Assembly: GCA_037043015.1 (NCBI GenBank)
Contig: CM073324.1
Location: 4,147,413-4,211,412 of the forward strand
Length of the DNA stretch: 64,000 nt
Reading direction: 5' to 3'
From: Bryum argenteum
Lineage: Eukaryota > Streptophyta > Bryopsida > Bryales > Bryaceae
Part shown: positions 14,674 through 46,590 of the stretch, piece after piece
Layout: each line of letters opens with the position of its first letter
Numbering within the stretch: position 1 is the first letter of the stretch
Position numbers and translations under genes: made by a program
Notes under the pieces: model-generated
The model's database searches: none
What the model saw: only the letters and a program-made list of their open reading frames with translations
What the model was told of the DNA's origin: nothing

Positions 14674-14678
14674 CGAAT
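14674..14678 (+). repeat. Target-site duplication CGAAT, left copy
   Basis: Identical to 45,755-45,759 at the far end of the LTR nest. It flanks the LTR terminus tgtcgtgag on this side and tcgaca on the other, so it marks the original insertion of the minus-strand element. A third, inverted copy (attcg, 16,942-16,946) precedes the inner element. Confidence 0.85.
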
Positions 14679-16108
14679 TGTCGTGAGTTACCAGACCGAG
14701 AAGACCAAAAACAGCACAATTTTACTTATGCAACCAAGCAAAATGGTTCGCCTTCCGGGTAACGTTCCACGGAGATTCTGTGAAGTGTGAAGACCAAATG
14801 AAATCCGGACCAACAACCTATGGACGCTACAACGACAGAAAACGTTCTAATCTACCGGATTAGGGAACTCGGGAATTAAGACCCAACTAATACTTAAACC
14901 CAAAACCCCAGGGTGACCGGTAGATTCTGATCCGGTTGCCTTCCTTACAACTCGATTAATATTCTGGCCGGTTAGGGCCTGTTTGTGCGGGGTGATTTAA
15001 TTTAACCTCCGTGAATCCTCGGAGGGGTTCTTCCTGTGAGTTTTCAGTAGAGTACGGAAGGGGCACTCTCCTCCGGTTGATTAGGGTGACTGGAATTTCA
15101 CCTATACTTGTATCTCTCTCTCTTTCTCTCTCTCTGGGGTTCCTCCCTTACAACTGCCGCTACCACTTGATAAATTCCCTCAAACGGTAGGTCACACCGG
15201 CGGCTGTCCGGTTCTCTCCTTCTTCCTGAGCGACACAACTTGTGATCCGGTCTGCAGTGAGTAGCATCCCACTACTCGGCCCACAAGATTTCCTACTACG
15301 CACCCCGGCGGTTAGCTGGTGTCCGGGATTGGGGGCTACTCCCTTCGTGGACTTTCCTCACCCGAATATCCCATCCGGGGGGTGGGTCTGCGGGGTGGCT
15401 TTACTCACCAATCCCGGCTCTCCTGTCCAGTCCGGTTAGAGTCACGACCTCCCCTCCCTTGGGCACTTGCTACAACTCCTCCAGGACGTTCGGACTCCTC
15501 TCACTAGGACCTCTTACTGACGGTGTCACCCCTCCGATTATTTCCCCTCTCGGATATCTCGGACTCGTGACTACCAGACCAACAAGGGACTTCCTGTATC
15601 CACTACCGGTTTCCAAACCTCACCTTGCACAAAAGACCAAGCAAATCACTCGCATGCACACACACAGCAAGGACGCAAAGTTTAGATGCAAAATTGAGCC
15701 TTTACTCACAGGGGGGTGGATCGCAGAAAAGACCCGAAGGACTCCGCAGAGCCTTCGGTAAGTACAGAAGGTTCCGGATTTCCCGGAAACCCTATCAGAT
15801 CCGGAATTCCCGGGTCTCCGAGATTTCCGGGTGAGTGGCCAAAAGGGCATCTACTATTTCTAGCTACTTCTAACCTAACTAATGACTAACTAATCTTCTT
15901 TCGGCGGCGCGGGGCGGCTCGAGGGGGCTGACGGCGGGGTATTCCTCCTGAAAGTGCCTGCCAACTCGCGGGGAGGAATCTGCCTCCCTGATCACCCCGG
16001 GTGTAGAAGTAAAACCTCGGGTTTTACTGTGTCCTCCGGTTCTTCCACCTGTCCCGGAGTGCCTTCAACTTTGAGGGAGGGGGCGCGGGATGGACTTCCT
16101 CTTCTTCT
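14679..16108 (-). mobile_element. 3' end of the minus-strand element's 3' LTR, displaced fragment
   Basis: This 1,430-base piece matches the last third of the 4.58-kb LTR of the family, from about LTR position 3,176 to the terminus. It lies next to the left target duplication, so it is the outer end of the minus-strand element. The rest of the same LTR is at 32,138-35,117, separated by the inserted 16.0 kb. About 190 bases of LTR (matching 30,539-30,727) are missing between the two parts. Confidence 0.8.
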
Positions 16109-16946
16109 TTATTATAGTTTATGAATTAGTATGCATGTTCTATTTTCACTCCAACAATACTCTTTGTTTCAAATGCATTGCATGCCTTTCAAATTTTGGC
16201 CCACCAAGTACACTTATGTTTATTATAATATTTTGCCCCTTTGCACCATTTGGATGAGGCCTTTAGGGTAAAGCCCAAAAAAACCTATTGATTCAATTTT
16301 TAAGTGTTGGTTGGATAATTCAAAATTAGCGATTTATATTCTATTTTTCTTCTCATATGTTTATAAGCCAATCACTACTGAAATTCCAAAAATATTTAAG
16401 TCATAATATTTACCAATTTTACAGTGGCAGCCTCCAGAAATTACCAACACAAGCTCAAAATGTATTAGTAAATTATGAATTACATATTTTAGATTATGGA
16501 AAACTGTTAGAAATAAGTTACCTCAAAAATCACAAACTCCTACACTCACATACCCCACTTTAAGTTCTTTATAATACGAAATATACGTAACGACGTGCAT
16601 GTTTTACTATAGTATTGTTTTCGGACCTGCTTTTAGAAAATAACTTGTAAGAATGTCAATCAAGAGGAATGAGGCTCCCATATTTTGCATGAATTTACTA
16701 CACTTGATTACATACATGGGAAAAAATATGACCAAAATTTTGTTGGTAACAATCTCCAACTCCCCTTTTTGCACCGTGGAGACACTGCCTCCGGAGCAAA
16801 TCCCAAATAAAGTTTTAAACAAAATTTGGATGTTAGGATCTCGCAAATGATAAACATCCTAAGGTCACTTTTTAAAATAGTAACTTAAGATAGGCTTCGG
16901 TTCACGATCTTACGGTTGAATGTATTAAATAGATAAAAATAATTCG
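16109..16946 (+). repeat. Inverted copy of the insertion-site flank (segment S)
   Basis: AT-rich, non-coding, and an inverted, nearly identical copy of 45,755-46,590; I see only one or two small length differences. It ends in attcg exactly at the LTR start at 16,947, as the right-hand copy does. It is therefore copied flank, not element sequence. Short hydrophobic open frames occur in both copies and are not gene-like. Confidence 0.85.
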
Positions 16947-19900
16947 TGTCGAACCCCTGTTCTCCAATATTTTTGTTTTTAGCAATTAATTAGGAGTAAA
17001 ATAGCTGATTTAGCAAGTAGGAATAAAAACCGCCCGCTTAACCCGGTTCGTAGATAGTACTTTTGTGATAGGATTCTTAGGCTAACCTTAGGGGATTCTA
17101 AAGCTTACCGGATACCCGGGTTGATACCCGGCCGATACCTGAGATGCCCGGATGGGCGGTTCTCCCTACGGGTTGATGACCGGGCCGCCGGTCGACCGGA
17201 GAAAGGGCCGGAAAACTCGCGGGCGCCGACATAATCACCGGCGGCTCAATGATGACGGGTACTTCGGTGTACGCGTCGAGCTACTGGTGATGATGTCTCG
17301 GAGGGAGAGTTCGGTTTGTTGTTATTAGGAGCCGCCGCCTCCATTCTCGGCCATTCCGATCCGCGCGTTTTGAGAGATAGAGCGAGTTTGAGAGCTCGGC
17401 CCGATCCGAGGGTGTTGGAAAAGCGAGTTTGGAGAGATTAGGGTTTCGGAAGTAGGGTTTCTACCGGAATCGGTCCGGGAAAGCGGGGAGAGAATAGTTC
17501 GGCGACTACGGAGACCGGGAGCAATGCCGAAGAGGAGGGAGGTGGCCCCGTGGCAATCGGGATGCCGATTCCCCTCAAGTCGGTGAAGCCGCAGTGCCCG
17601 AGCCGCCACCGCACCGGCGGAGGCGAGGATGACCTCCTCCGGATGGGGTGCGCGGGTCGACGATGCCCGTGGGACTCGGGCGGACCAGGCCATCATCGAG
17701 GAGACCGTCACCCACCGCTTCCCCGAGATGTATGTGACGCACCCCCTGAGGGGGAAGACGGATAACTGGGGACCTCGCCATTGGAGGGCGACTTACAAAT
17801 TCCCGGACTCCCCGATCGGCTACATCAAGAAGAAGGGCGACGACGGATTGAGGAACCGGTTCCGCAAGGGGCCAACGGAGAAAGACGGGTTCAAACCGGA
17901 GGACTGCAAGGACCCCCGGGTGACGCGCCTCCTCCGGTTTCTCCTCCCCATACTCGGCCGGACAAGCCGACCACCGCACCGTGAAGGCGATGAAGGCTAT
18001 TTTTGGGAATTACGATGGACGGATGCGGTCGGGTGGCACCACATCATCGGCCGAGGTGGTACGGCGGGAGGTGATGAAGATTGGGAATCGAAGGGGTGCC
18101 CACCGGCCCCTACATCTTCCACTCTACCAACGGCACGGCATCCTCACCGACCGGGAGATATTCTACGGCACGAGAAGCACGACCTCCCATCCGGAGATCC
18201 GCAGGGCCAACCTCTTCCGAATCCGGGAGGAGATGGAGCAAGTCCGGGCTACCGACCTGGAGGGTCACCGGAACCGCCACTCGACAAAGCCGAGCGGTGG
18301 GGCCCACCAAGCCGGACCAAGACAAAGACTCCCGGGTGGCCACCCGGGAGAAAAAGTAGTAGCGGGTGAACCCCACCCGGAATTCTCAGACAATGCCCTC
18401 CCCTGTTCATGCCGAATGCGAGAGGAGGAAGAGGAAGAAGAAGAAGAGATCGTCCCCCTCATCCGGAGGGACAAGCCCAAAGAAGGGGCCGAGGAGATAG
18501 CCGAGGCGGGTGGAGACCAATCCGCGGAGGAGGAGGAGGGGAGCGAGGAAGAGGAGGAAGAGGAAGCCCCACCTCGACAGGCAAGACCATCCCGAGGGGT
18601 GAGGAGGAAGGATACGACCGGCTTTGGGAGAAGACGTTCTCCCGTCCGAATCCCACCCCGGTGATACAGAGGTCCCGAATGAGGAGGTGGCTGCGCGCAG
18701 GCTATTGCGAGGTGCCTCCACCCGGACAGAGGCCCCGAGGAGGGAGAGTACCCAACCCAAGCGCAAGGCCAAGAAGAGGAAGAGGTCGGGCGAGTCCGGT
18801 GGCACGTACCGAGGGGCCGCCGAGGAGGAGCGTGCCCCAAGTCCGGACCCCTCACCGATGCGAGATCCGGCTCCGCCCGATAGCGAGCCGATCCCGGAGA
18901 GCCAGCCCAAGGTGAAGAGGAGGCTGCTCATTGCAGAGGAAGAGAACACCCCGGAGAGGGCCATACCTCCCCGACTGGAGCTACCGGAGCAGAGGAGTGA
19001 CCCCGCCCCGGCCACTCCAGCATCAGTGGCAGCTCCGGAGTCATCCCACAGAGGACATGTGACCCCCGGGACGGGCAACACCACCCCGGTGCTCCCCCGC
19101 CCCTACTACCGGATACCCAGCGAGGGTATCCTCCACCCCATCCGGCTGGCCATGGAAGAGGTAGATAGGGAGAATGAACAATTGTTCACCTCCCTGGCGC
19201 GACTCGAGCGGGTTTTCCAGACCCCCAACGTGGAGAGGTACCCGGAGTTGGCCGAGGAGATGCAGCGGGAAACGGCCAAGCTGAGGAGGGAGAAGGTAGA
19301 GCTGGTGCTGAAGGCCCGGCCAAAGGAGAAGGCATCCGTGGGAGTCCAGTGTGGACCGGACCCCTCGGACACGGAGGCACATCCGGAGGTGGAAGCCCTC
19401 AGGAGGGTTGTGGAGGGGCAGGAGGCTGCACTCCAGAGGTTGCAGAACATTGATCGGACGGTGCTGCACTCCATCTTGAAGGTGCTGCAACCGGATGCAG
19501 AGGCTCAAACGAAGGCGGCCTTCTATGATGCTCGGATTGGGATCAGTGAATCACCCCAATCTCTGGAGCTGCTCAGGAGGCACGCAACCGGCATCAACCA
19601 GTGCCTAAAAGAGTTCCGGACTCTTACGGGTAGGTTGTTGGGGGCCCTCCCCCACGTGGAGATTCAGGAAGCCCTCCCGGAAGGGGAGGTAATCGCACCC
19701 CCAGAGGTGCCCACGGAGGGGCCGATGCCCATGGAGGTGGAAGGAGTATCCCTGCCCGTTTGGAGGAGCAGAGGATCCCGATCGATGGTGGCGTTCGGAG
19801 GACAGGGAGGGAGGACAAGCTGCAACTCCCCCTCGGGGAGATGATACCCCGGGTGAGACAGGACTACCCGGTCCCTCCGAGGTGGAGCAGGTGGTGGAAG

Positions 19901-21527
19901 GAGAGGTGAACCCCTCTCAACAACCGGATGAGATCCCGGTTGACGGTGCCACAGGAGAAGGGTCAGGACTTCCCGAGCAGCTCGAGGAAGTAGCAGCTCA
20001 CCCGGAGGCCCAAGACAACGAGGTCGGAGATCCGGGTGAACAGGGTCATCAGGATGAACCCGTGGCCCCGCAGGAACAGCAGGAGGAGCCCGTGGTTCCG
20101 CATGAAGAAGAGGAAGTCCATCCCGCGCCCCCTCCCTCAAAGTTGAAGGCACTCCGGGACAGGTGGAAGAACCGGAGGACACAGTAAAACCCGAGGTTTT
20201 ACTTCTACACCCGGGGTGATCAGGGAGGCAGATTCCTCCCCGCGAGTTGGCAGGCACTTTCAGGAGGAATACCCCGCCGTCAGCCCCCTCGAGCCGCCCC
20301 GCGCCGCCGAAAGAAGATTAGTTAGTCATTAGTTAGGTTAGAAGTAGCTAGAAATAGTAGATGCCCTTTTGGCCACTCACCCGGAAATCTCGGAGACCCG
20401 GGAATTCGGATCTCGATAGGGTTTCCGGGAAATCCGAACCTTTCACTTACCGAAGGCTCTGCGGAGTCCTTCGGGTCTTTCCCGCGATCCACCCCCGTGA
20501 GTAAAGGCTCGGTTTTGCATCTAAACTTTGCGTCCCTTTGTGTGTGTGCATGCGAGTGATTTGCTTGGTCTTTTGTGCAAGGTGAGGTTTGGAAACCGGT
20601 AGTGGATACAGGGAAGTCCCTTGTTGGTCCGGGTAGTCACGAGTCCGAGATATCCGAGAGGGGAATAACCGGAGGGGTGACACCGTCGAAGAAGAGGTCC
20701 TAGTGAGAGGAGTCCGAACGTCCCGGGAGGAGTTGTAGCAAGTGCCCAAGGGAGGGGAGGTCGTGACTCTAACCGGACCGGGACAGAGAGCCGGGATTGG
20801 TGAGTAAAGCCACCCCGCGCGGACCCACCCCGGATGGGATATTCGGGTGAGGAAAGTCCACGAAGGGAGTAGCCCCAATCCCGGACACCGGCCTAACCGC
20901 CCGGGGTGCGTAGTAGGAAATCTTGTGGGCCGAGTAGTGGGATGCTACTCACCTGCAGACCGGATCACAAGTTGTGTCGCTCGGGAAGAAGGAGAGAACC
21001 GGAGACCGCCGGTGTGACCTACCGTTTGAGGGAATTTATCAAGTGGTAGCGGCAGTTGTAAGGGAGGAACCCCAGAGAGAGAGAAAGAGAGAGAGATACA
21101 AGTATAGGTGAAATTCCAGTCACCCTAATCAACCGGAGGAGAGTGCCCCTTCCGTACTCTCTCGAAAAACTCACAGAAGAACCCTCCGAGGATTCACGGA
21201 GGTTAAATTAAATCACCCCGCACAAAACAGCCCTAACCGCCGAATATTAATCGAGTTGTAAGGAAGGCAACCGGATCAGAATCTACCGGTCACCCTGGGG
21301 TTTTGGGTTTAAGTATTAGTTGGGTCTTAATTCCCGAGTTCCCTAATCCGGTAGATTAGAACGTTTTCTGTCGTTGTAGCGTCCATAGGTTGTTGGTCCG
21401 GATTTCATTTGGTCTTCACACTTCACAGAATCTCCGTGGAACGTTACCCGGAAGGCGAACCATTTTGCTTGGTTGCATAAGTAAAATTGCGCTGTTTTTG
21501 GTCTTCTCGGTCTGGTAACTCACGACA
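16947..21527 (+). repeat. 5' LTR of the inner Ty3/gypsy element
   Basis: Begins TGTCGAACC and ends CTCACGACA, so the termini form a short TGTCG...CGACA inverted repeat. At 4,581 bases it is far above the few hundred to 2,000 bases usual for plant LTRs. It contains a long coding-type region (about 17,524-20,187) followed by 1.3 kb of non-coding sequence that includes a CT/GA-rich tract. Confidence 0.85.
17524..20187 (+). pseudogene. Coding-type region inside the LTR, unknown product
   Basis: A coding-type stretch of about 2.7 kb lies wholly within the LTR, and counterparts lie in the other copies (28,139-30,805, about 42,514-45,167 and the shortened 32,138-34,540). The first third looks globular, with Trp/His/Arg-rich conserved parts. 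The middle is very rich in Glu, Arg and Pro. The last third includes a likely coiled coil and a conserved AFYDARIGI segment. I recognise no known domain and it does not resemble this element's gag. As a fossil part it is broken in the copies seen here. Confidence 0.5.
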
Positions 21528-21539
21528 TGAGTGAAACTT

Positions 21540-21557
21540 TGGCGCCGCTGCCGGGGA
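21540..21557 (+). other. Primer-binding site, tRNA-Asp type
   Basis: tggcgccgctgccgggga, 12 bases after the LTR end. It is one base from the usual tggcgccgttgccgggga of plant Athila/Tat elements, which pairs with the 3' end of tRNA-Asp. Confidence 0.85.
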
Positions 21558-21730
21558 TTCTAAAGCTGTGAAGCCAAGAACTCTCCGGTAGGACGCTGAG
21601 TTCCCGTTTTGTAGATCCGTGGATCTTTGCGGGAAATCGGAATGCTGGTGAGCTCGTCAGCACGAAGTCGCAAGTGCGAGTCGGACTGAACGAGGGGGAG
21701 GCCTGCTGAGGAATACCAGCAAGTTGCTTC

Positions 21731-23190
21731 ATGACTCAAGGGCAAACCAGCGAACCGGACTCACGACGTGTTACCCGGTTCATGAGAAGGAGTACCATTC
21801 CGGTAGTTACCCCAACTATCCAAGCACGAGAGGTTCCAGACGGCCTAGAAGAAACGCTATACGCCGCTCCACCGGAAGAGGTTGTTGTTCCTGTGAGGAG
21901 TGGAACGTACCGCCCCTCCACCGGGTGTGGAGATACTAGTTGCACCGGAGGAAAGGAGGCCAAACCCCATGGAGGCTCTCCGCCGGTCAAAGGAGAGCCG
22001 CCCACTCACTCGCCTCAAGTATAATCGCTTCCAAGGAGATGGTAGCAAGGACGTGGACGACTGGTTGCAAGAATTCACCACCACGGCGAACGCCAACCAG
22101 GAAGATCCGGAGTCCCGGTTGAGAGTCTTCTCCGGAATGATGAAGGGGGAAGCACTCAAGTGGTTCATGGATGTTCCGGATGAGGTGCGCGAGAACTGGG
22201 AGGAGCTCACAGCATTGTTCCTTCACACCTTCCGTGAATCGGGAGGAGAGCGAGCCCTGGGGCGGTTGAGCGAGATCACCAAGAAGAGGTCTGAGAACAT
22301 CCGGCAGTACGGGATGAGGGTTAAGTCCCTCATGAATAAAGTCACAACGGACATTGCTCCGATTGTAGCCATTCAGTGGTACATAGCCGGTCTCCCGAAT
22401 GAGATGGCCTTCTAGATCCGGAGGACCAAACCGGTTACACTCCGAGCGGCGATGGAGGCTGCTCAGGATTACGAGGATTCGGCCCTATCTCTGCGTGATC
22501 CGAAGAAGGAGAAAAATAAGAAGCAGCGCGAGAAGGACCGCAAGAAAAAGAAAGAGGAAACGGAGTCGGACAGCTCGGAGGATGACAGTGCTGCTGAGAA
22601 GGAGTCCGAGGAGGATGGCGATCCGGATAGCGAGTCGGACCCCCCGAAGAGGTCCGGCAGCAACAAGGCCGCGAAATCCGGTAAAGAGAAGGCGACCATC
22701 AAGATCAAGGTCGAACCGGAAGACAACATGAAGCTCCTCCTGGACGAACTCCGCGCCATCAAGGTCAACCTCACGGAGAACCGGCCATCCCGGAAACTGC
22801 CCTCAAGTACCAGGTCGAACGTGTGGTGTTCACGCTGCCGTGAGCCCGGCCATTTCGCTTCGGACTGCCCCCACGCAAAAGCGAAGAAGCCTGTCCATTT
22901 CGTGGAGGCAGAGACCGGAGTGGAGTACACCATGCCGGATGATGATGATTATGCGGATGGTGATGTCCAGTACATCTACCAAGTCCAAACCGGTTACGGA
23001 AGAGGAAGAGGGAACCCCCCTCGACCGAACGGCAACCCAGGCAGATCCGGTCATGGGCGGGGAGCTAGTTCCAACGGCCCACCCGGGGATCAGCGGAGTT
23101 ACAGCTACCTGGACAATGTCCAGTGCTACCGGTGTGGACAGTATGGTCATTATGCGACCGGGTGCTTCAACGAGCCTCTCGCAAGGTAAC
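21731..23190 (+). pseudogene. gag region of the inner element
   Basis: Retrotransposon capsid-type domain at about 21,990-22,415, a charged Lys/Glu/Ser-rich linker, then two CCHC zinc knuckles (CSRCREPGHFASDC near 22,830 and CYRCGQYGHYATGC near 23,125). The order is normal for Ty3/gypsy gag. Broken. Confidence 0.8.
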
Positions 23191-23407
23191 GGAGTCGTGC
23201 AAATCCTACCTTGTCAAAACCGGGGGGGAGCATGGCCATAGGGAGACGAGTTGTCCAAAACCTCCTCGACGTAAGATTGCACCGAAGATGATGGTGGTGG
23301 AGCCACCCCGGGAGATGATCTATGTTTGAACTACGCGCACACCGCTGGGGTAGACAATCCGCCCAAATGATGCCAGGAGGTGGAACCGCCGGACGTGGGG
23401 AGGTTCT

Positions 23408-26400
23408 GTGAACAAGGTCTCCACCCGCAGCTCCACCAAAGGCAATACGGACTCCGGTAGTCGGCGGAAGAAGAAGAATACCAGGGCCACCGGAAACGCA
23501 GTTGATAGTCCGGGCGGTTACTCCGAGGAGGTAAACCGGAGTAGTCACCACGATAGAACCACCCCGGTAGAAGCAAAGAAAGGGGTGGAGTACGATAGGT
23601 TAGAAATAGACATAATCGATGAAGTCAGAACTCCTTTGTCAAGGAGGACCCAAACCGAGGCGAAGAAAGTCCGGTTTGTGGACAATCCGGTGATATTGAA
23701 ACCGGGACCCAAGGCAAGGGTGGATGAGTACGACATCCTGCAGGACGTCAAGGATCAGCGCGCGAACGTCACAATCGGTCAACTACTCCACGACAACGTC
23801 AATTACCAGAAGGTTATCCGGGAGGCTTGGATACAGAGAAGGAAGAAGAGGTACAAGCTTCCGGCGGTGGCGGTAAATTTTGTCGCCCTCGAGGATTACG
23901 GAGCCCCGAAATTACGATTGAAGTTGATGGCTGCAATATCCATAACGTTCCGGTAGATGGCGGATCCGGGGTTAACCTCATGCTGGAGGATACGGCATAC
24001 GACCTCGGTTACACGACCTTGGAGAGAACCGGCCTGGTGCTACGGATGGCAGACCAATCTCGAGTAGTTCCGGTCGGCCTTCTCTCTCAGATCCCATCCC
24101 GTGTGGGAAAGCAGACCTATTTGCTGAACTACGTGGTGATCCGGGTTGACGAGGGAAGACCCTTCCGAATCTTCGCTTGGACGACCATGGCTCTATCGGC
24201 CAAGGTAGTGGTAGATGGAGAGAGAAGGAATTCGGGTTGGGAGACCCCGTCCGGATTCCTTGGAAACACGTCGCTCACGAAGGAGAAAACCAGCATCACC
24301 GAGGATTACACTCGGATTGGTCGGAGTCGAACCGGAGTCCCAGGCGTGCTATCCGGTCGAGGAGTTTACCGGATTGGTGGAGAAGGACTTCAATTCCCGC
24401 AGCAAGTCCCGGAGGAAGCACCCCTCCCGCAGCTTGGACCCACTCCGGGAAGGGAAGACCGATGTGGAGGACCGTTCCCGGGCGAATCATGTACCGCACT
24501 CACGGAGAAGTGGGTACGCCAACAATCGACTAACCCGGATACCCAACCTTACGAATGGGGGGGAAGTCACTTGTCATGGGGGCGTTGGATCCGGATCCGC
24601 AGGAGAAAGGACTCGAGAGGATCAAGAACGTGGTCTCACCCAAGGACTACGAGGAGATGGAAGTTCGGACGGGGACGAAAGTTCTACGTGGGGAAGACGT
24701 TGACCGCGGAGGAAAAGGAGGAATGCCGCCAATCTTTGGCGGAATATTCCGACGTGTTCGCTGGACTCCCGGCCGACTTGGGGGAATCCTTCCCACCGGG
24801 AGAGCATGAAATCGATTTGATCGATGGAGCGTTCCGTCCGACAACGTCGCACCGACTAAACCCGAAGTACTCGCCGATGGTGAAGGAGGAGATAGATCGG
24901 TTCTTTGGATGCGGGGTTCATCTACCCGGTCAACAACTCGGAATGGGTTTCTCCGATAGTGGTTGTTCCGAAGAAAACCGGAGCAGATGGGAAAGTGAAG
25001 ATCCGCGTCTGCCAGGATTTCCGGAAGTTGAATGCGGCCACCAAGAAGGACTACTACCCCCTACCCTTCACCGATGTCATTCTTGATCATGTAGCCGGTC
25101 GGGAATCGCGACTTCCTCGACGGATTTCTCGGTTACAACCAAGTGTCAATCCGGGCTAGCGATCAGCTGAAGACCACCTTCACGACGGAATGGGGAACCT
25201 ACGCGTTCAACCGGATGCCTTTCGGACTTTGTAACGCCCCGGGCACCTTCCAGAGGCTCATGATTGACATCTTTAAAGATTTCCTTCGACATTTCTTGGA
25301 AGTCTTTATCGATGACTTCGCGGTGTTTGGAGAACGGAAGAGCCACCTTTCCCACCTTCGCCAAACCTTCCAGCGCTGCAGAGAGACGGACCTCAAACTG
25401 CATCCCGGTAAATGCTTCTTTGGCATGGAAACCGGGTTGCTGTTAGGACACGTTGTTAGTCGGCAAGGGTTGCAAGTGGACACGAGATAAGGTTAAGGTA
25501 ATCGACCTATCCCCACCCCGGACGGTGCGGGAAGTTCGAGGATTCCTCGGCCGTGTCGGGTACTACCGAGATTCATCGACAGCTATGCTGGGAGGGCGTC
25601 CCCTCCGACGGAGTTCTTTGAAGAACAACGAGCCGTTCGTGTGGACATCCGAACGGGCAAAGCGCGCGTCGAGGATCTGAAGAAGCAGTTGGTCCGTGCT
25701 CCAATCCTCTCCCCACCGGATTGGAAGAAGGAGTTTAATGTGACCATTGATGCGTCCGGATGGTGCCTAGGGGCCATCTTGTGGCAAGCGGACGACCAAG
25801 GGCGGGAGAACCCGATTTACTACGCTAGCAAAGTGATGAGCTCCGCGGAGCGCAATTACACCACCACAGAGAGGGAAGCGTTAGCAGTGGTGTACTCCTG
25901 CAAGAAGTTCCGGCATTACCTCCTCGGTTACAAAGTCGTGTTCCATACGGACCATGACTCCCTGAAGTACCTTGTTAACAAGGCTGACCTGTCCGGGAGG
26001 ATTGCCCGATGGATCCTACTCCTCCAGGAATTTGATTACGAAGTGAAGGTGAAAACCGGAAAGCCAATTCCAATGCGGATTACCTCTCCCGGATGCGCGA
26101 TGGGACAAAGCTTTTGAGGATGTACCGAGCCTCTTTCCGGACGAGTTTTCGGAAGGGAACCCGGTTCCCTCCACGAGTGTTCCACATTGAACAGGCACCC
26201 GTTTCGGACTATCAGGACATCGGGATTTTTTTCAACACGGGGAGTATCCGGAAGGCATGTTGAGGGATCAAGAGCGTGTTCCAAGACAAAATGGCACCCT
26301 ACACCCTCCTATCCGGGATCCTCTTCCGGATGGGACTCGATGATGTCATCCGACGCTTGAGCCCCGACGAACGTAAACCGGTGATGGAGGCACTTCACGC

Positions 26401-27489: not shown

Positions 27490-27540
27490 AGGCAATCATG
27501 TTGGAGGGGACGAATGTGTTCGCGGGGACGCTCACATTTA

Positions 27541-35117: not shown

Positions 35118-38100
35118 TTACCCCTTTCTTAAATGTGAGCGTCCCCGCGAACACATTCGTCCCCTCCAACATGATTGCCTTTAACTGGAATCATCAGCCG
35201 AGGCATCCTCCGGTTCGGAACCGGTGTCTGCCTCCGAAATTGATTCGGGGTAGTACCTTTTCACTCGAGATCCATTCGTTCGGGTTGGTAGGGGGTTACC
35301 TTGCAAATCCTCAAGCTGTAATGACCCATTGGCGAAGACCTCCGTGACCTTGTAAGGTCCGATCCACCGGTGTGGAGTTTTCCGGGAAGTCCATGAACCG
35401 GCCGTCGTCGTGACAAGAGGACCAGCGTCTCGGTTCGGATTCCATGATCCCGGGAAGGCGTCGGTCATAGATTACCTTTCGGTTCTCTTGCTCTACCCGG
35501 TTTTTCTCAATGGCCTCCTCCTCGGCTCCTCCAAGTTGTCAATGGCCATCGGCGGGGGTGTCATCCTCCACTCTTTCCCCATCCGGATTGCCATTACCCG
35601 GTGAGACTCGATGTTGAGCTCGATGCCGTGGATGCATTCTTGTCCGAACACCATGAAGAACGGGTCTTCCCGGTGGTGGTCTTCTCCGAGGTGTTGTAGG
35701 CATGTATGGCGGATGGCAGCTTGCGATCCCAATCCGTCTTGTGTGCCGACACCATTTTGCTGAGGATTTTGCCAACAATTCCGTTGGACCGCTCCGTAAG
35801 ACCGTTAGCCTTCGGGTTATACGGAGTCGTCTTCCGGTGTTTGATGGCATACCTCTTGGTCAGATCCTCCACAATGTCGTTGATGAAGTGCTTTCCCCGG
35901 TCACTCACCAACTCCAGGGGGTACCCGAAACGCATCATGATCTCCTCGAAAAGGAACCGGGCTGCTACTCGTGCGTCGTTTCCTCTTGTAGCCCGGGCCT
36001 CTACCCATTTGGTGGCATAATCCGTAGCCAGGATTATGTACCTCTTCCGATCACTACTGACCGGATTGACTGGACCGATGAAATCAATCCCCCATTTGAC
36101 AAAAGGGGCTAAGGGGATGATGGGGGTCAGTGGCCAGTGGTGCTTCGTCTGCGGGGCACCGGTCCGCTGGCACTGGTCACAACTCCGGACGTACTTCTTC
36201 ACATCACGGATGATGTAGGGCCACCAATAACCAGCACTTTTGATCCGGTTCACCGTGCTCATCGCTGCGAGGTGTCCTCCCGAATCGCCTGCGTGAAGTG
36301 CCTCCATCACCGGTTTACGTTCGTCAGGCTCCAAGCAGCGTCGGATGACATCATCAGGTCCCATCCGGAAGAGGATCCCGGATAGGAGGGTGTAGGGTGC
36401 CATTTTGTACTGGAACACGCTCTTCTGATCCCTCAACATGCCTTCCGGATACTCCCCCGTGTTCAGAAAATCCCTGATGTCCTGATAGTCCGAAACGGGT
36501 GCCTGTTCAATGTGGAACACTCCTGTGGAGGGAACCGGGTTCCCTTCCGAAAACTCGTCCGGAAAGAGGCTCGGTACATCCTCAAAAGCTTTGTCCCCGC
36601 GCATCCGGGAGAGGTAATCCGCATTGGAATTGGCTTTCCCGGATTTCACCTTCACTTCGTAATCAAATTCCTGGAGGAGTAGGATCCATCGGGCAATCCT
36701 CCCGGGACAGGTCAGCCTTGTTAACAAGGTACTTTCAGTGAGTCATGGTCCGTATGGAACACGACTTTGTAACCGAGGAGGTAATGCCGGAACTTCTTGC
36801 GTGAGTACACCATCGCTAACGCTTCCTCTCTCGTGGTGGTGTAATTGCGCCCGCTGAGCTCATCTCGCCGCTAGCGTAGTAAATCGGGTTCTCCCGCCTC
36901 TTGGTCGTCCGCTTGCCACAAGATGGCCCCTAGGCACCATCCGGACGCATCAATGGTCACATTAAACTCCTTCTTCCAATCCGGTGGGGAGAGGATTGGA
37001 GCACGGACCAACTGCTTCTTCAGATCCTCGAACGCAGCCTGCCGTTCGGATGTCCACACGAACGGCTCGTTGTTCTTCAAAGAACTCCGTCGAGGGGACG
37101 CCCTCCTGGCATAGCTGTCGATGAATCTCCGGTAGTACCCGACACAGCCGAGGAATCCTCGAACTTCCCGCACCGTCCGGGGTGGGGATAGGGTCAGGAT
37201 TACCTTAACCTTATCTGTGTCCACTTGCAACCCTTGCCGACTAACAACGTGTCCTAACAGCAACCCGGTTTCCATGCCAAAGAAGCATTTACCGGGATGC
37301 GGTTTGAGGTCCGTCTCTGCAGTATACTGGAAGGTTTGGCGAAGGTGGGAAAGGTGGCTCTTCCGTTCTCCAAACACCGCGAAGTCATCGATAAAGACTT
37401 CCAAGAAATGTCGAAGGAAATCTTTAAAGATGTCAATCATGAGCCTCTGGAAGGTGCCCGGGGCGTTACAAAGTCCGAAAGGCATCCGGTTGAACGCGTA
37501 GGTTCCCCATTCCGTCGTGAAGGTGGTCTTCAGCTGATCGCTAGCCCGGATTGACACTTGGTTGTAACCCGAGAATCCGTCGAGGAAGCTGTACAGTTCC
37601 CGACCGGCTACATGATCAAGAATGACATCGGTGAAGGGTAGGGGGTAGTAGTCCTTCTTGGTGGCCGCATTCAACTTCCGAAATCCTGGCGACGCGGATC
37701 TTCACTTTCCCATCTGCTCCGGTTTTCTTCGGAACAACCACTATCGGAGAAACCCATTCCGAGTTGTTGACCGGGTAGATGAACCCTGCATCCAGCAACC
37801 GATCTATCTCCTCCTTCACCATCAGCGAGTACTTCGGGTTTAGTCGGTGATCGACAAGAACCGACCGAACGGCTCCATCGATCAAATCGATTTCATGCTC
37901 TCCCAGGTGGGAAGGGATTCCCCCCAAGTCGCTGGGAGTCCAGGCGAACACGTCGGAATATTCCGCCAGCAGTTGGCGGCATTCCTCCTTTTCCTCCGCG
38001 GTCAACGTCTTCCCCACGTAGAACTTTCGTCCTGTCCGAACTTCCATCTCCTCGTAGTCCTTGGGTGAGACCACGTTCTTGATCCTCTCAGGTCCTTTCT

Positions 38101-41100
38101 CCTCTGGATCCGGATCCAACGCCCCCCATGACAAGTGACTTCCCCCTCCCATTCGTAAAGGTTGGGTATCCGGGTTAGTCAGTTGTTGGCGTACCCACTT
38201 CTCCGTGAGTGCGGTACATGATTCGCCCAGGGAACGGTCCTCCACATCGGTCTTCCCTTCCCGGAGTGGGTCCAACTGCGCAGAGGGGTGCTTCCTCCGG
38301 GACTTGCTGCGGGAATTCAAGTCCTTCTCCACCAATCCGGTAAACTCCTCGACCGGATAGCACGCCTGGGACTCCGGTTCGACTCCGACCAATCCGAGGT
38401 GTAATCCTCGGTGGCACTGGTTTCTCCTTCGTGAGCGACGTGTTTCCAAGGAATCCGGACAGGGTCTCCCAACCCGAATTCCTTCTCTCCGGTCTACCAC
38501 TACCTTGGCCGATAGAGCCATGGTCGTCCAAGCAAAGATTCGGAAGGGTCTTCCTCGTCAACCCGGATCACCACGTAGTTCAGCAAATAGGTCCGCTTTC
38601 CCACACGGGATGGGATCCGAGAGAGAAGGCCGACCGGAACTACTCGAGATTGGTCCGCCATCCGTAGCACCAGGCCGGTTCTCTCCAAGGTCGTAACCGA
38701 GGTCGTATGCCGTATCCTCCAAAGATGAGGTTAACCCCGGATCCGCCATCTACCGGAACGTTATGGATATTGCAGCCATCAACTTCAATCGTAATTTCGG
38801 GGCTCCGTAATCCTCGAGGCAAAGCAAAATTTACCGCCACCGCCGGAAGCTTGTACCTCTTCTTCCTTCTCTCGTATCCAAGCCTCCCGGATAACCTTCG
38901 GTAATTGACGTTGTCGTGGAGTAGTTGACCGATTGTGACGTTCGCGCTACCGATCCTTGACGCCCTGCGCAGATGTCGTACTCATCCACCCTTGCCTTGG
39001 GTCCCGGTTTCAATATCACCGGATTGTCCACAAACGGACTTTCTTCGCCTCCGGTTTCGGGTCCTCCTTCAAAGAAGGAGTTCGACTTCATCGATTATGT
39101 CTATTTCTAACCTATCGTACTCCACCCCTTTCTTTGCTTCTACCGGGGTGGTTCTATCGTGGCCGACTACTCCGGTTTACCTCCTCGGAGTAACCGCCCG
39201 GACTATCCTGCGTTTCCGCCGGCCCTGGTATTCTTCTTCTTCCGCCGACTACCGGAGTCCGTATTGCCTTTGGTGGAGCTGCGGGTGGAGACCTTGTTCA
39301 CAGCAACCTCCCCACGTCCGCAGGTTCCACCTCCCGGCATCATTTGGGCGGATTGTCTACCCCGGCGGTGTGCGCGTAGTTCATGTGATCATCTCCCGGG
39401 TGGCTCCACCACCATCTTCGGTGCAATCTTCTCGTCGAGGAGGTTTTGGACAACTCGTCTCCCTATGGCCATGCTCCCCACAGTTTTGACAAGGTAGGAT
39501 TCAGACGACTCCGTTACCTTGCAGAGGCTCGTTGAAGCACCCGGTCGCATAATGACCATACTGTCCACACGGTAGCACTGGACATTGTCCGTGTAGTCAG
39601 AACTCGCCGATCCCGGGTGGGCCGTTGGAACTAGCTCCCGCCCATGACCGGATCTGCTGGGTTGCCCGTTCGGTCGAGGGGGGTTCCTCTTCCTCTTCCG
39701 TAACCGGTTTGGACTTGGTAGATGTATCGACATCACCATCCGCATAATCATCATCATCCGCATGGTGTACTCCACTCCGTCTCCGCCTCCACGAAATGGA
39801 CAGGCTTCTTCGCTTTTGCGTGGGCGATCCGAAGCGAAATGGCGGGCTCACGGCGGCGTGAACACCACACGTTCGACCTGGTACTTGAGGGCGTTTTCGG
39901 GATGGCCGGTTCTCCGTGAGGTTGACCTTGATGGCGCGGAGTTCGCCGGGGAGGAGCTTCATGTTGTCTTCCGGTTCGACCTTGATCTTGATGGTCGCCT
40001 TCTCTTTACCGGATTTCGCGGCCTTGTTGCTGCCGGACCTCTTCGGGGGGTCCGACTCGCTATCCGGATCGCCATCCTCCTCGGACTCCTTCTCGGCCAA
40101 AGACTTTGTCATCCTCCGAGCCGTCCGACTCCGTTTCCTCTTTCTTTTTCTTGCGGTCCTTCTCGCGCTGCTTCTTATTTTTCTCCTTCTTCGGATCACG
40201 CAGAGATAGGGCCGAATCCTCGTAATCCTGAGCAGCCTCCATCGCCGCTCGGAGTGTAACCGGTTTGGTCCTCCGGATCTAGAAGGCCATCTCATTCGGG
40301 AGACCGGCTATGTACCACTGAATGGCTACAATCGGAGCAATGTCCGTTGTGACTTTATTCATGAGGGACTTAACCCTCATCCCGTACTGCCGGATGTTCT
40401 CAGACCTCTTCTTGGTGATCTCGCTCAACCGGCCCAGGGCTCTGGCCTCTCCTCCCGATTCACGGAAGGTGTGAAGGAACAATGCTGTGAGCTCCTCCCA
40501 GTTCTCGCGCACCTCATCCGGAACATCCATGAACCACTTGAGTGCTTCCCCCTTCATCATTCCGGAGAAGACTCTCAACCGGGACTCGGATCTTCCCGGT
40601 TGGCGTTCGCCGTGGTGGTGAATTCTTGCAACCGATCGTCCACGTCCTTGCTACCATCTCCTTGGAAGCGATTATACTTGGCGAGTGAGTGGGGCAGCTC
40701 TCCTTTGACCGGGCGGGAGCCTCCATGGGGTTTGGCCTCCTTTCCTCCGGTGCAACTAGTATCTCCACACCCGGTGGAGGGGCCGGGCACGTTCCACTCC
40801 CTCACGGGAACAACAACCTCTTCCGGTGGAGCGGCGTATAGCGTTTCTTCTAGGCCGTACGGAACCTCTCGTGCTTGGATAGTTGGGGTAACTACCGGAA
40901 TGGTACTCCTTCTCGCAGACCGGGTAACACGTCGTGAGTCCGGTTCATTTGGTTTGCCCTTGAGTCATGAAGCAACTTCTTTGGTATTCCTCAAGAGAGG
41001 CCTCCCCTCGTTGATCCGACTCGCACTTGCGACTTCGTCTTTGACGAGCTCACCAAAGATTCCGATTTCCCGCGGCATCCACCGGATCTACAAAACGGAA

Positions 41101-41173
41101 CTCGGCGTCCCTACGGAGAGTTCTTGGCTTCACAGCTTTAGAATCCCCGGCAGCGGCGCCAAAGTTTCACTCA
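35118..41173 (-). mobile_element. Internal region of the minus-strand Ty3/gypsy element
   Basis: About 6.06 kb, collinear with the internal region of the inner copy in opposite orientation. Reading on the minus strand: primer-binding site 41,161-41,144, gag about 40,970-39,370 with zinc knuckles, protease near 38,850-38,500, RT about 37,850-37,200, RNase H about 37,000-36,600, integrase about 36,340-35,540, C-terminal tail to about 35,180. Broken, with several breaks, although the pol part has longer open stretches than the inner copy. With its LTRs this is the original insertion at this locus. Confidence 0.85.
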
Positions 41174-44100
41174 TGTCGTGAGTTACCAGACCGAGAAGAC
41201 CAAAAACAGCGCAATTTTACTTATGCAACCAAGCAAAATGGTTCGCCTTCCGGGTAACGTTCCACGGAGATTCGTGAAGTGTGAAGACCAAATGAAACCG
41301 GACCAACAACCTATGGACGCTACAACGACAGTAAAAACGTTCTAATCTACCGGATTAGGGAACTCGGGAATTAAGACCCAACTAATACTTAAACCCAAAA
41401 CCCCGGGGTGACCGGTAGATTCGATCCGGTTGCCTTCCTTACAACTCGATTAATATTCGGCCGGTTAGGGCTGTTTGTGCGGGTGATTTAATTTAACCTC
41501 CGTGAATCCTCGAGGGGTTCTTCCTGTGAGTTTTTCGTGAGAGTACGGAAGGGGCACTCTCCTCCGGTTGATTAGGGTATTTGGAATTTCACCTATACTT
41601 GTATCTCTCTCTCTTTCTCTCTCTCTCGGGGTTCCTCCCTTACAATCGCCGCTACCACTTGATAAATTCCCTCAAACGGTAGGTCACACCGGCGGCCGTC
41701 CGGTTCTCTCCTTCTTCCCGAGCGACACAACTTGTGATCCGGTGCACGGTGAGTAGCATCCCACTACTCGGCCCACAAGATTTCCTACTACGCACACCCG
41801 GCGGTTAGGTGGTGTCCGGATTGGGGGCTACTCCCTTCGTGGACTTTCTCACCCGAATATCCCATCCGGGGTGGGTCGCGGGGTGGCTTTACTCACCAAT
41901 CCCGGCTCTCTGTCCGTGATCCGGTTAGAGTCACGACCTCCCCTCCCTTGGGCACTTGCTACAACTCCTCCAGGACGTTCGGACTCCTCTCACTAGGACC
42001 TCTTACTGACGGTGTCACCCCTCCGGTTATTCCCCTCTCGGATATCTCGGACTCGTGACTACCAGACCAACAAGGGACTTCTGTAGATCCACTACCGGTT
42101 TCCAAACCTCACCTTGCACAAAAGACCAAGCAAATCACTCGCATGCACACACACAGCAAGGACGCAAAGTTTAGATGCAAAACTGAGCCTTTACTCACAG
42201 GGGGGTGGATCGCAGGAAAGACCCGAAGGACTCCGCAGAGCCTTCGGTAAGCATGAAGGTTCGGATTTCCGGAAACCCTATCAGATCCGGAATTCCCGGG
42301 TCTCCGAGATTTCCGGGTGAGTGGCCAAAAGGGCATCTACTATTTCTAGCTACTTCTAACCTAACTAATGACTAACTAATCTTCTTTCGGCGGCGCGGGG
42401 CGGCTCGAGGGGGCTGACGGCGGGGTATTCCTCCTGAAAGTGCCTGCCAACTCGCGGGGAGGAATCTGCCTCCCTGATCACCCCGGGTGTAGAAGTAAAA
42501 CCTCGGGTTTTATTGTGTCCTCCGGTTCTTCCACCTGTCCCGGAGTGCCTTCAACTTTGAGGGAGGGGCGCGGGATGGACTTCCTTCTTCTTCATGCGGA
42601 ACCACGGGCTCCTCCTCGCTGCCTTTCTGCGGGGCCACGGGTTCATCTCGATGACCTGCTCACCCGGATCTCCGACCTCGTTGTCTTGGGCCTCCGGGAG
42701 AGCTGCTACTTTCTCGAGCCGCTCGGGAAGTCTCGACCCTTCTCTCTGTGGCACCGTCAACCGGGATCTCATCCGGTTGTTGAGAGGGGTTCACCTCTCC
42801 TTCCACCACCGCTCCACCTCGGAGGGACCGGGTAGTCTGTCTCACCGGGGTATCATCTCCCGAGGGGAGTTGCGGCTTGTCCTCCTCCCCTGCCCTCCGA
42901 ACGCCACCATCGATCGGGATCCTGCTCTCCCCTCAAACGGGCGGGGATACTCCTTCCACCTCCATGGGCATCGGCCCCTCCCGGCACCTCGGGGGTGCGA
43001 TTACCTCCCCTTCCGGGAGGGCTTCCCGAATCTCCACGTGGGGAGGGCCCCAACAACCTACCCGTAAGAGTCCGGAACTCTTTTAGGCCTTTGGTTGATG
43101 CCGGTTGCGTGCCTCTGAGCGGCTCCAGAGATTGGGGTGATTCACCGATCCCAATCCGAGCATCATAGAAGGCCGCCTTCGTTTGAGCCTCGCATCCGGT
43201 TGCAAAGACCTTCAAGATGGAGTGCAAGACCGTCCGATCAATGTTCTGCAACCTCTAGAGTGCAGCCTCCTGCCCCTCCACAACCCTCCTGAGGGCTTCC
43301 ACCTCCGGATGTGCCTCCGTGTCCGAGGGGTCCGGTCCACACTGGACTCCCACGGATGCCTTCTCCTTTGGCCGGGCCTTGGCACTGACTCTACCTTCTC
43401 CCTCCTCAGCTTGGCCGTTTCCCGCTGCATCTCCTCGGCCAACTCCGGGTACCTCTCCACGTTGGGGGTCTGGAAAACCCGCTCGAGTCGCGCCAGGGAG
43501 GTGAACAATTGTTCATTCTCCCTATCTACCTCTTCCATGGCCAGCCGGATGGGGTGGAGGATACCCTCGCTGGGTATCCGGTAGTAGGGGCGGGGGAGCA
43601 CCGGGGTGGTGTTGCCCGTCCCGGGGGTCACATGTCCTCTGTGGGATGACTCCGGAGCTGCCACTGATGCTGGAGTGGCCGGGGCGGGGTCACTCCTCTG
43701 CTCCGGTAGCTCCAGTCGGGGAGGTATGGCCCTCTCGGGGTGTTCTCTTCCTCTCGCAATGAGCAGCCTCCTCTTCACCTTGGTGGCTCTCCGGGATCGG
43801 CTCGCTATCGGGCGAGAGCCGGATCTCGCATCGGTGAGGGGTCCGGACTTGGGGCACGCTCCTCCTCGACGGCCCCTCCGGCTGTGCCACCGGACTCGCC
43901 GACCTCTTCCTCTTCTTGGCCTTGCACTTCGAGGTTGGGTATTCTCTCCCTCCGGGGGGCCTCTGTCCGGGTGGAGGCACCTCCGCAATAGCCCTCGCGC
44001 ATGACCACCTCCTCATTCGGGACCTCTGTATCACCGGGGTGGGATTCGGACGGGAGAACGTCTTCTCCCAAAGCCGGTCGTATCCTTCCTCCTCACCCCT

Positions 44101-45754
44101 CGGGATGGTCTTGCACTGTCGAGGTGGGGCTTCCTCTTCCTCCTCTTCCTCGCTCGGCCCTCCTCCTCCGCGGATTGGTCTCCACCCGCCTCGGCTATCT
44201 CCTCGGCCCCTTCGCTCTTTGGGCTCTTGTCCTCCGGATGAGGGGGACGATCTCTTCTTCTTCTTCCTCTTCCTCCTCTCGCATTCGGCATGAACAGGGA
44301 GGGCATTGTTCGAGAATTCCGGGTGGGGTTCACCCGGCTACTTTTTTTTCTCCAGGTGGGCCCGGGAGTCCATCTTTGGTCCGGCTTGTTTGGGCCCCAC
44401 CGCTCGGCCTGTCGAGTGGCGGGTTCGGTGACCCCTCCGGTCGGTAGCCCGGACTTGCTCCATCTCCTCCCGGATTCGGAAGAGGTTGGCCCTCGCGGAT
44501 CTCCGGATGGGAGGTCGTGCTTCTCGTGCCGAGAGAATATCTCCCGGTCGGTGAGGATGCCGTGCCGTTGGTAGAGGTGGAAGATGTAGGGGGCGGTGGG
44601 CACCCCTTCGATTCCCAATCTTCATCACCTCCCATTGTACCACCTCTGATGATGTGGTGCCACCCGACCGCATCCGTCCATCGTAATTCCCCAAAATAGC
44701 CTTCATCGCCTTCACGGTGCGGGTGGTCGGCTTGTCCGGGTGAGTATGGGGAGGAGAAACCGGAGGAGGCGCGTCACCCGGGGTCCTTGCGGTCCTCCGG
44801 TTTGAACCCGTCTTTCTCCGTTGGCCCCTTGCGGAACGGTTCCTCAATCCGTCGTCGCCCTTCTTCTTGATGTAGCCGATCGGGAGTCCGGGAATTTGTA
44901 AGTCGCCCTCCAATGGCGAGGTCCCCGATTATCCGTCTTCCCCCTCGGAAGTGCGCCACATACATCTCGGGAAGCGGTGGGTGACGGTCTCTCGATGATG
45001 GCCAGTCCGCCAGTCCCACGGGGCATCGTATGACCGGCGCACCCCATCCGGAGGAGGTCATCATCCTCGCTCCGCTCAGTGCGGTGGCGGCTCGGGCACT
45101 GCGGCTTCACCGACTTGAGGGGAATCGGCATCCCCGATCGCCACGGGGCCACCTCCCTCCTCTTCGGCATTGCTCCCGGTCTCCGTAGTCGCCCGGAACT
45201 ATTCTCTCCCCGCTTTCCCGGACCGATTCCGGTAGAAACCCTACTTCGAAACCCTAATCTCTCCAAACTCTGCTTTTCCAACACCCTCGGATCGCTGAGC
45301 TCTCAAACTCGCTCTATCTCTCAAAACGCGCGGACTGGAATGGCTGAGAATGGAGGCGGCGGCTCCTAATAACAACAAACCGGAACTCTCCCTCCGAGAC
45401 ATCATCACCCCGCTCGAGACGCGTACACGGGAAGTACCCGGTCATCATTGAGCCGCCGGTGATTATGTCGGGCGCCGCGAAGTTTTCCGCCCTTTTCTCC
45501 CGGTCGACCGCGCCCCGGTCATCAACCCGGTAGGGAGAACCGCCCATCCGGGCATCTCGTGGTATCGGCCGGGTATCAACCCGGGTATCCGGTAAGCTTT
45601 AGAATCCCCTAAGGTTAGCCGGAAGAATCCTATCACAAAAGTACTATCTACGAACCGGGTTAAGCAGGCCGGTTTTTATTCCTACTTGCTAAATCAGCTA
45701 TTTTACTCCTAATTAATTGCTAAAAACAAAAATATTGGAGAACAGGGTTCGACA
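41174..45754 (-). repeat. 5' LTR of the minus-strand Ty3/gypsy element
   Basis: 4,581 bases, complete, with termini tgtcgtgag (left) and ggttcgaca (right) on the plus strand. It is followed at once by the CGAAT target duplication. It carries its own LTR-internal coding-type region at about 45,167-42,514. Confidence 0.85.
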
Positions 45755-46590
45755 CGAATTATTTTTATCTATTTAATACATTCAACCGTAAGATCGTGAA
45801 CCGAAGCCTATCTTAAGTTACTATTTTAAAAAGTGACCTTAGGATGTTTATCATTTGCGAGATCCTAACATCCAAATTTTGTTTAAAACTTTATTTGGGA
45901 TTTGCTCCGGAGGCAGTGTCTCCACGGTGCAAAGGGGGAGTTGGAGATTGTTACCAACAAAATTTTGGTCATATTTTTTCCCATGTATGTAATCAAGTGT
46001 AGTAAATTCATGCAAAATATGGGAGCCTCATTCCTCTTGATTGACATTCTTACAAGTTATTTTCTAAAAGCAGGTCCGAAAACAATACTATAGTAAAACA
46101 TGCACGTCGTTACGTATATTTCGTATTATAAAGAACTTAAAGTGGGGTATGTGAGTGTAGGAGTTTGTGATTTTTGAGGTAACTTATTTCTAACAGTTTT
46201 CCATAATCTAAAATATGTAATTCATAATTTACTAATACATTTTGAGCTTGTGTTGGTAATTTCTGGAGGCTGCCACTGTAAAATTGGTAAATATTATGAC
46301 TTAAATATTTTTGGAATTTCAGTAGTGATTGGCTTATAAACATATGAGAAGAAAAATAGAATATAAATCGCTAATTTTGAATTATCCAACCAACACTTAA
46401 AAATTGAATCAATAGGTTTTTTTGGGCTTTACCCTAAAGGCCTCATCCAAATGGTGCAAAGGGGCAAAATATTATAATAAACATAAGTGTACTTGGTGGG
46501 CCAAAATTTGAAAGGCATGCAATGCATTTGAAACAAAGAGTATTGTTGGAGTGAAAATAGAACATGCATACTAATTCATAAACTATAATA
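45755..46590 (+). repeat. Original insertion-site flank (segment S), starting with the right CGAAT duplication
   Basis: Starts with the target duplication (45,755-45,759). It is the true continuation of 14,678 before the LTR insertion and forms the spacer between the Tyr-rich gene and the kinase-like gene. Its inverted copy is at 16,109-16,946. No gene is recognised in it. Confidence 0.8.

Follow-up and report, generated by a model that had tools for sequence, protein, structure and literature searches.

How could an LTR retrotransposon come to lie inside the LTR of a near-identical relative, together with an inverted copy of the host DNA that borders that relative? The window analysed here, a stretch of 64,000 nucleotides from contig CM073324.1 of Bryum argenteum, contains an outer Ty3-type element on the minus strand, with a 5′ LTR (41174–45754; LTR length 4.58 kb), an internal region (35118–41173) and a 3′ LTR that is split into a terminal part (14679–16107) and a remaining part (32138–35117). 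Within this 3′ LTR sits a full relative on the plus strand (16947–32137), composed of a 5′ LTR (16947–21527), an internal region (21528–27552) and a 3′ LTR (27553–32137). Just before the inner element lies S′ (16108–16946, minus strand), which repeats in inverted form the flank S of the outer element (45755–46592, plus strand); S is either its source or its twin. The original prediction explained this arrangement by a one-ended integration that was completed by copying from the resident element; all the pieces it named were found, with coordinates differing by at most 2 bases. An assembly fold-back had been named there as the alternative.

The elements are Ty3/gypsy LTR retrotransposons. Both carry LTR ends of the TG...CA type (TGTCG...CGACA), and the outer element is enclosed by the perfect CGAAT target duplication that had been noted (14674–14678 and 45755–45759), the right copy of which opens S. 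A gag domain (PF03732) is located within 21897–22415 of the inner element. In the outer copy, reverse transcriptase and RNase H domains (RVT_1 and RT_RNaseH_2, 36871–37701) lie upstream of the integrase domains (Integrase_H2C2 and rve, 35594–36742), which is the Ty3-type order RT-RH-INT. The domain search was run on separate open-frame pieces, and the open frames of the inner internal region shift repeatedly. The beginning of that region, just inside the LTR, resembles a primer-binding site. A viral_contigs scan with a single reverse transcriptase fragment returned no relative, and tRNA and Rfam scans over the window gave no matches.

The two borders of the inserted DNA differ in character. 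Both inner LTR termini are complete, and on the right (J2, 32137/32138) the inner element ends, as predicted, at the exact LTR terminus ...CGACA, which abuts the interior of the target LTR. Because this end is exact and the outer CGAAT duplication is perfect, the outer insertion and the integrase-type right join look genuine. On the left, the inner LTR is preceded by ATTCG, the same bases that are found on the S side of the outer element, and S′ begins at a blunt join (J1, 16107/16108) with zero shared bases on either side and no microhomology. The loss of about 190 target LTR bases was likewise borne out: the gap falls between the 14679–16107 and 32138–35117 parts, where the counterpart of 42594–42787 is absent (194 bases, or 188 when counted on the inner 3′ LTR). 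As assembled, the inner element has no 5-bp duplication, since ATTCG and S′ stand on its left and GGTTC on its right; the two-sided target duplication of an ordinary nested insertion could hold only on condition that S′ is artefactual. A scan for repeats reaching about 200 bases from the two outer joins and from the end of S detected no inverted pairs, and two direct pairs near J2 that look like chance.

One way to account for these borders is genuine copying off the resident element, either in the course of integration or later, in which one end would be fixed by integrase and the other border copied via the resident inverted 5′ LTR into the flank and then end-joined. From the sequence as it stands, this pair of readings taken together is doubtful. 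In the one-step version, which is the original proposal, a cDNA joined by integrase at one end would have invaded the resident 5′ LTR with its other end, copied as far as S and been end-joined; the absent left duplication then needs no deletion beyond the end-joining. If S′ is real, though, an ordinary nested insertion that was repaired at a later time with the inverted partner as template gives identical joins. In this two-step version a nested insertion with its target duplication would be followed by a double-strand break near the inner left end, after which the inner 5′ LTR would copy the outer 5′ LTR by synthesis-dependent or break-induced copying through ATTCG into S, and the copied end would be joined to LTR sequence some 190 bases further on. 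Either version accounts for the right join, ATTCG and S′ as well as for the missing LTR bases and the missing left duplication. Inverted repeats that are near-identical serve well as templates for repair, which suits the two-step version. At one yeast locus, inverted copies are described as arising frequently by template switching at inverted repeats (PMC11790251). The two-step version requires, however, a second rare event, and a very recent one, as S and S′ differ at a single place. We regard the two-step version as improbable and the one-step version as slightly more so: its product is indistinguishable from the two-step one, the copies offer nothing that could be used for dating, and among the matches listed in a literature search, which left most subscription journals outside, there was no precedent for one-ended, half-site or single-ended LTR-retrotransposon integration.

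What is novel in one-ended copying is confined to S′ and the blunt join at 16107/16108, and these are not decisive, because a fold-back of the assembly at a 14.5-kb near-identical inverted repeat would leave them as well. Our preferred reading, to which we give a probability of a little under one half (about 0.47) on sequence grounds, is an ordinary opposite-strand nested insertion that was misassembled on its left side. Accordingly worded, a young Ty3-type element would have inserted on the minus strand between two CGAAT copies, and a near-identical relative would later have inserted the opposite way into its 3′ LTR, with the right end of this second insertion preserved as the exact LTR end at J2 and with GGTTC (32138–32142) predicted to be one half of the target duplication that it made. 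Between them, the outer and the inner element form the 14.5-kb near-identical inverted repeat. The assembler would then have left the inner element leftward, followed reads from the outer 5′ end and run about 840 bases into S, thereby producing S′; a blunt joining of this tail to the left stub would have removed the roughly 190 LTR bases together with the left-hand half of the new target duplication. We infer on this basis that S′ and the join at 16107/16108 are artefactual, and the novel part of the original interpretation is probably not real.

Several features argue for a fold-back. The inverted repeat is far beyond chance, its arms are near-identical, the outer frame with its perfect CGAAT and the exact right join looks genuine, and J1 is devoid of microhomology. 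The S′ tail, 839 bases long, matches the reverse complement of 45755–46592 in 837 identical columns, the exceptions being a single mismatch and a single gap. These two differences adjoin within a single C/T homopolymer run (C4T5 versus C5T3) and can be either homopolymer noise or the mark of two real copies; that S and S′ are not fully identical counts somewhat against a fold-back. So do the absence of Ns from the window, which means that no gap marks a seam, and the position of J1 only 194 bases from that of J2 within the LTR, which suits real repair with slight resection. The same nearness also suits a contig that ends near a repeat boundary.

Aligned over 14,649 columns, the two arms show 349 mismatches and 359 gap openings, a difference of about 5%. 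The original prediction had missed this difference. Clusters of differences touch CAG/CTG in 208 of 359 cases, against about 51 expected at random, and none of 300 random placements reached the observed count in any of three regions. Of 544 CAG/CTG sites, 268 are altered in the partner copy, frequently with the middle base missing or replaced, whereas three control trinucleotides are altered in 6–9% of cases and AGC/GCT, which overlaps CAG/CTG, in 21%. With the wider contexts CNG or CG the count rises to 287 of 359 clusters (about 172 at random placement); of the remaining 72 clusters, 51 are located at runs of at least 3 equal bases and just 7 consist purely of substitutions. GCA/TGC is also enriched in the three regions (45 versus 21.4, 10 versus 6.1 and 44 versus 18.1 expected), as are AGG/CCT (58 versus 41.1, 22 versus 12.3 and 46 versus 29.4), CCG/CGG, CG and CCWGG, and GAA/TTC, GTA/TAC, GAC/GTC and GAG/CTC show no clear enrichment. 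When the LTR stub is compared, broken cells reach 31% for TCG/CGA, 24% for AGC/GCT and 20% for TGA/TCA; several of the misbehaving control contexts overlap CAG/CTG or arise from its miscalls.

Real divergence was rejected as the principal source of what separates the arms, as gaps outnumber mismatches in all 8 comparisons of element pieces and the differences sit at CAG/CTG; the ninth comparison, S with S′, has one of each. Decay of CpG (CCG to CTG) was rejected as well, since C/T differences occur at 59 of 1027 CYG sites but at 7 of 2104 in the other NYG contexts (AYG 0/592, TYG 3/794, GYG 4/718). The arm difference is thus largely non-biological and looks mostly like consensus errors. What was found agrees with the signature predicted for errors at methylated CHG sites, namely a focus on CAG/CTG, many indels, changes of the middle base and no C-to-T decay of the CpG type, and the pattern suggests a nanopore consensus that was polished unevenly and derives from CHG-methylated DNA, both platform and methylation being read from this pattern only. 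Intact and broken CAG/CTG sites occur in runs, with 1.5–4.5% of columns differing between intact sites and 8–19% between broken ones. Such runs fit uneven polishing, and the error-like look of the differences counts in favour of the fold-back. Since stretches of intact sites still differ in 1.5–4.5% of columns, CAG/CTG context alone does not explain all of the arm difference, which tempers this support. A profile of observed over expected CAG/CTG, considered as a map of unpolished stretches, was dropped as confounded by composition and decay; its values are low in the left flank and 0.66–1.15 to the right of 56 kb, and S has 7 sites against 13 expected.

The stub to the left of J1 (14679–16107) is cleaner than the matching parts of the other three LTR copies: 39 of its 41 CAG/CTG sites are intact, compared with 24, 19 and 23 of 41 there, although Fisher values for this comparison treat linked sites as independent. 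It looks as though pieces that had been treated differently meet at J1, and this is kept only as a hint in favour of the fold-back: the cleanness may be chance, because runs of 16–21 consecutive intact sites occur elsewhere too, namely in each of the inner LTRs and in the remaining part of this outer LTR.

It might also be asked whether the whole 16-kb insert is an artefact, in which a single outer element was assembled together with its own fold-back molecule, either template-complement or chimeric. Between the inner and outer internal regions there is one isolated substitution outside CNG/CG, compared with 18 inside (and 16 isolated indels outside), which speaks for this reading; palindromic reads are, moreover, known among the artefacts of long-read sequencing and can favour misassembly, as described in the setting of MDA amplification (PMC13265396). 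On the other hand, the turn must hit the LTR terminus to the base, a coincidence that we estimate at about one in thousands, and 1.6 kb of stem must be lost as well. Of the 91 columns that split 2:2 among the four LTRs, 52 group the inner pair against the outer pair, as expected for two separately read elements, 19 group 5′ with 5′ and 3′ with 3′, and 20 are crossed; broken blocks differ by 8.0% and 9.6% within an element and by 11.5–19.4% between elements. Orientation-linked errors would give the same grouping by element. From the sequence features listed, we consider an entirely artefactual insert unlikely, on a par with the one-step copying. The 2:2 patterns were dropped as a record of parentage, because the columns inspected are mostly CAG/CTG or run contexts and lie in blocks. 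Neither age nor parentage is readable from the copies, because they look like poorly polished nanopore-type consensus.

If the structure is real, a fresh LTR element and a resident one have moved host DNA through repair copying from one to the other, self-nesting would let LTR elements duplicate and invert their host flank, and a route to inverted duplications has been captured at base resolution. If it is an artefact, which we judge the likelier case, unpolished errors at CAG/CTG can make young LTR elements seem about 5% diverged and frame-broken, so that insertion ages would be falsified, and near-identical inverted nests may draw flanking DNA into false palindromes.

How does this nest compare with known systems? 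Insertion into an element of the same family (autoinsertion) has been described and is commoner in Ty3/gypsy than in Ty1/copia; 5-bp target duplications predominate, and two of six nested pairs, from a different family pair, are in reverse orientation (PMC6911290). In that study LTRs are not commonly targeted, whereas here the target is an LTR, and the nested copy, as assembled, has no left duplication and follows an inverted outer flank. In plant nanopore data methylation is held to be a likely cause of reduced accuracy (PMC9749173) and extra short-read polishing is called necessary (PMC7501810); the relevant passages do not name CAG/CTG, the context that emerges here from the sequence. Template-switch inverted duplication (ODIRA) and break-induced copying resemble the locus in producing inverted copies (PMC11790251), but in ODIRA the switch takes place at inverted repeats that are short, with a replication origin taking part, and here one border is the exact LTR terminus. 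Palindromic long-read misassembly shares with our locus the near-identical inverted arms and a short copied flank tail (PMC13265396); the case reported there concerns amplification artefacts in tardigrade mitogenomes, whereas the nest described here makes one of its turns at the exact end of an LTR.

The outer element is a resident minus-strand LTR element with LTRs of 4.58 kb. Its 5′ LTR lies at 41174-45754 (minus strand), its 3′ LTR is split by an insert into two minus-strand pieces (14679-16107 and 32138-35117), and the boundary repeat CGAAT is present on both sides (14674-14678 and 45755-45759). The insert, 16.03 kb in length, consists of S′ (16108-16946), which is an inverted copy of the outer-element flank S, and a full-length plus-strand member of the outer element's family (the inner element, 16947-32137; LTRs 16947-21527 and 27553-32137). 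The original prediction had described this layout, a minus-strand element flanked by CGAAT and carrying an opposite-strand family copy with inverted flank in its 3′ LTR, and it is indeed present. The inner copy has a gag domain in one of its open-frame pieces and the outer copy has RT-RNase H preceding integrase, a domain order that assigns the elements to the Ty3 type. Just inside the LTR, the sequence is similar to the tRNA-Asp primer-binding site known from Athila-like elements. Within the 4.58-kb inner 5′ LTR there are long open frames (17587-19844) that measure 260 and 413 codons between stops. The window also contains hAT transposase pieces (304-2893; DUF659 and C-terminal dimerisation domains) and, one per side of the element, CG-rich low-complexity stretches (12299-12787 and 48138-48758) carrying arginine/proline/aspartate-rich open frames. 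A non-LTR retrotransposon (49389-55406; RT domain 50310-51461) keeps four long open pieces in one shared frame over 6 kb, interrupted in frame by three TAA stops and one TAG, and this single frame contrasts with the LTR elements.

At the right join (J2, 32137/32138) the inner element ends in ...CACGACA, exactly the LTR terminus as had been claimed; the next base belongs to the outer LTR interior, and no sequence shared with either neighbour makes the placement ambiguous. This is the type of join that integrase leaves, and we estimate that a random break would land on that base about once in thousands. The exact terminus weakens the view that the whole insert is an artefact, in which a fold-back molecule of a single outer element was built into the contig; we regard that view as improbable. 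At the left join (J1, 16107/16108) S′ abuts LTR interior with zero shared bases on either side, and 194 bases (42594-42787 in the outer 5′ LTR) are missing from the target LTR between the two joins, close to the loss of about 190 originally noted. Alignment of S′ with the reverse complement of 45755-46592 gives 837 identical columns, one mismatch and one gap, the latter two within the same C/T run; ATTCG stands at the S′ end touching the inner LTR and at the S side of the outer element, so that the near-identical inverted flank and shared attcg were rightly recognised.

The choice among explanations rests on plausibility. Insert and outer element are nearly identical inverted arms over 14.5 kb, and at such a repeat an assembler can leave one arm via the exit of the other. 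Our preferred, tentative reading (probability about 0.47) is that a true nested insertion of the inner element into the outer 3′ LTR would leave J2, and that an assembly fold-back would add S′ and create a false J1. This combination accounts for the right end lying precisely at the terminus, the short and almost identical S′ tail, the blunt J1 and the small LTR loss beside the repeat border. The closeness of J1 to the insertion point, only 194 bases away, and the leftover S/S′ difference lean toward genuine copying from the resident element. Copying in two steps is unlikely and the one-step course originally proposed slightly more so, about level with a wholly artefactual insert; the two courses give identical joins and products. 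Slightly less weight still is left to explanations outside those weighed.

The arms (inner versus outer element) differ by 349 mismatches and 359 gap openings in 14,649 aligned columns, and gaps outnumber mismatches in all eight pairwise comparisons of element pieces. Judged from the sequence, these differences look mostly like consensus errors. When they were grouped into clusters and compared with 300 random placements, clusters touching CAG/CTG numbered 85/147 in LTR part A (25.7 by random placement), 33/56 in part B (7.3) and 90/156 in the internal region (18.1), counts reached by 0/300 placements in each region. CCG/CGG, CG, GCA/TGC and AGG/CCT are also enriched, in most rows more weakly, and the last two overlap CAG/CTG; in the same test enrichment was absent at GAA/TTC, GTA/TAC, GAC/GTC and GAG/CTC. 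In five pairwise comparisons the partner copy shows a change at 268 of 544 CAG/CTG sites, versus 73/855 for GAC/GTC, 73/1179 for GAA/TTC and 78/966 for CAC/GTG; the values are 136/660 for AGC/GCT, which overlaps CAG/CTG, 351/2011 for CCG/CGG and 253/1593 for ACG, TCG, CGA and CGT together. Most often the middle base is lost, or CTG is exchanged with CCG or CAG with CGG; these changes make up 122 of the 268, and single-base gaps fall on 67/479 CAG/CTG middles versus 336/28,197 in all other contexts. Only 19/152 CAG/CTG sites are intact in all four LTR copies, the other nine trinucleotide pairs ranging from 96/204 (TCG/CGA) to 151/168 (GAA/TTC). CpG decay was rejected as the cause, C/T differences occurring at 59/1027 CYG versus 0/592 AYG, 3/794 TYG and 4/718 GYG.

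Clusters touching CNG or CG amount to 287/359 (about 172 by random placement); among the remaining 72, seven consist of substitutions alone and 51 sit at homopolymer runs of at least three bases. Isolated differences, with eight matching columns on each side, comprise five substitutions and 51 indels outside CNG/CG and 41 and 83 inside (five comparisons). Real inner-versus-outer substitutions are thus few, in a number that is not exactly fixable, and the copies are not datable. Between intact CAG/CTG sites, 1.5-4.5% of LTR columns still differ, and 52 of 91 2:2 LTR patterns group by element, which may be real signal or orientation-linked error.

Intact and broken CAG/CTG sites are grouped along each LTR copy, in runs that reach 21 sites when intact and 16 when broken. 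Compared with 2000 shuffles per copy, part A has 23, 23, 42 and 33 runs (shuffled means 55.9, 44.8, 54.3 and 56.7; 0, 0, 22 and 0 shuffles as low), and part B has 15, 14 and 13 in three copies (about 21 shuffled; 70, 27 and 15 as low), part B of the outer 3′ LTR being uninformative for runs with 39/41 sites intact. That stub (14679-16107) compares with 24, 19 and 23 intact sites in the corresponding stretch of the three remaining copies; its cleanness hints at a seam at J1, a hint weakened by intact runs of 16-21 sites elsewhere and by site linkage. The blocks fit an unevenly polished nanopore consensus built from CHG-methylated DNA, the platform being inferred. In the left flank (1-12000) CAG/CTG stands at 0.30-0.59 of expectation in 2-kb windows, and at 0.66-1.15 right of 56 kb; the low values possibly mark unpolished or decayed methylated DNA.

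The apparent divergence of about 5% and the broken frames of the LTR-element copies in 14679-45754 stem largely from error-like CAG/CTG differences in alternating good and bad blocks, and insertion ages taken from such an assembly would come out wrong. Two reports name plant methylation as a likely cause of reduced nanopore accuracy (PMC9749173) and short-read polishing as necessary (PMC7501810); CAG/CTG as the affected context is our own reading of this sequence. In the literature searched, outside which most subscription journals lie, no precedent was found for one-ended, half-site or single-ended LTR-retrotransposon integration. Same-family nesting is known and commoner in Ty3/gypsy, with LTRs not common targets (PMC6911290). 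Palindromic reads are described as able to promote misassembly (PMC13265396), and template switching, according to a yeast study, yields inverted copies (PMC11790251).
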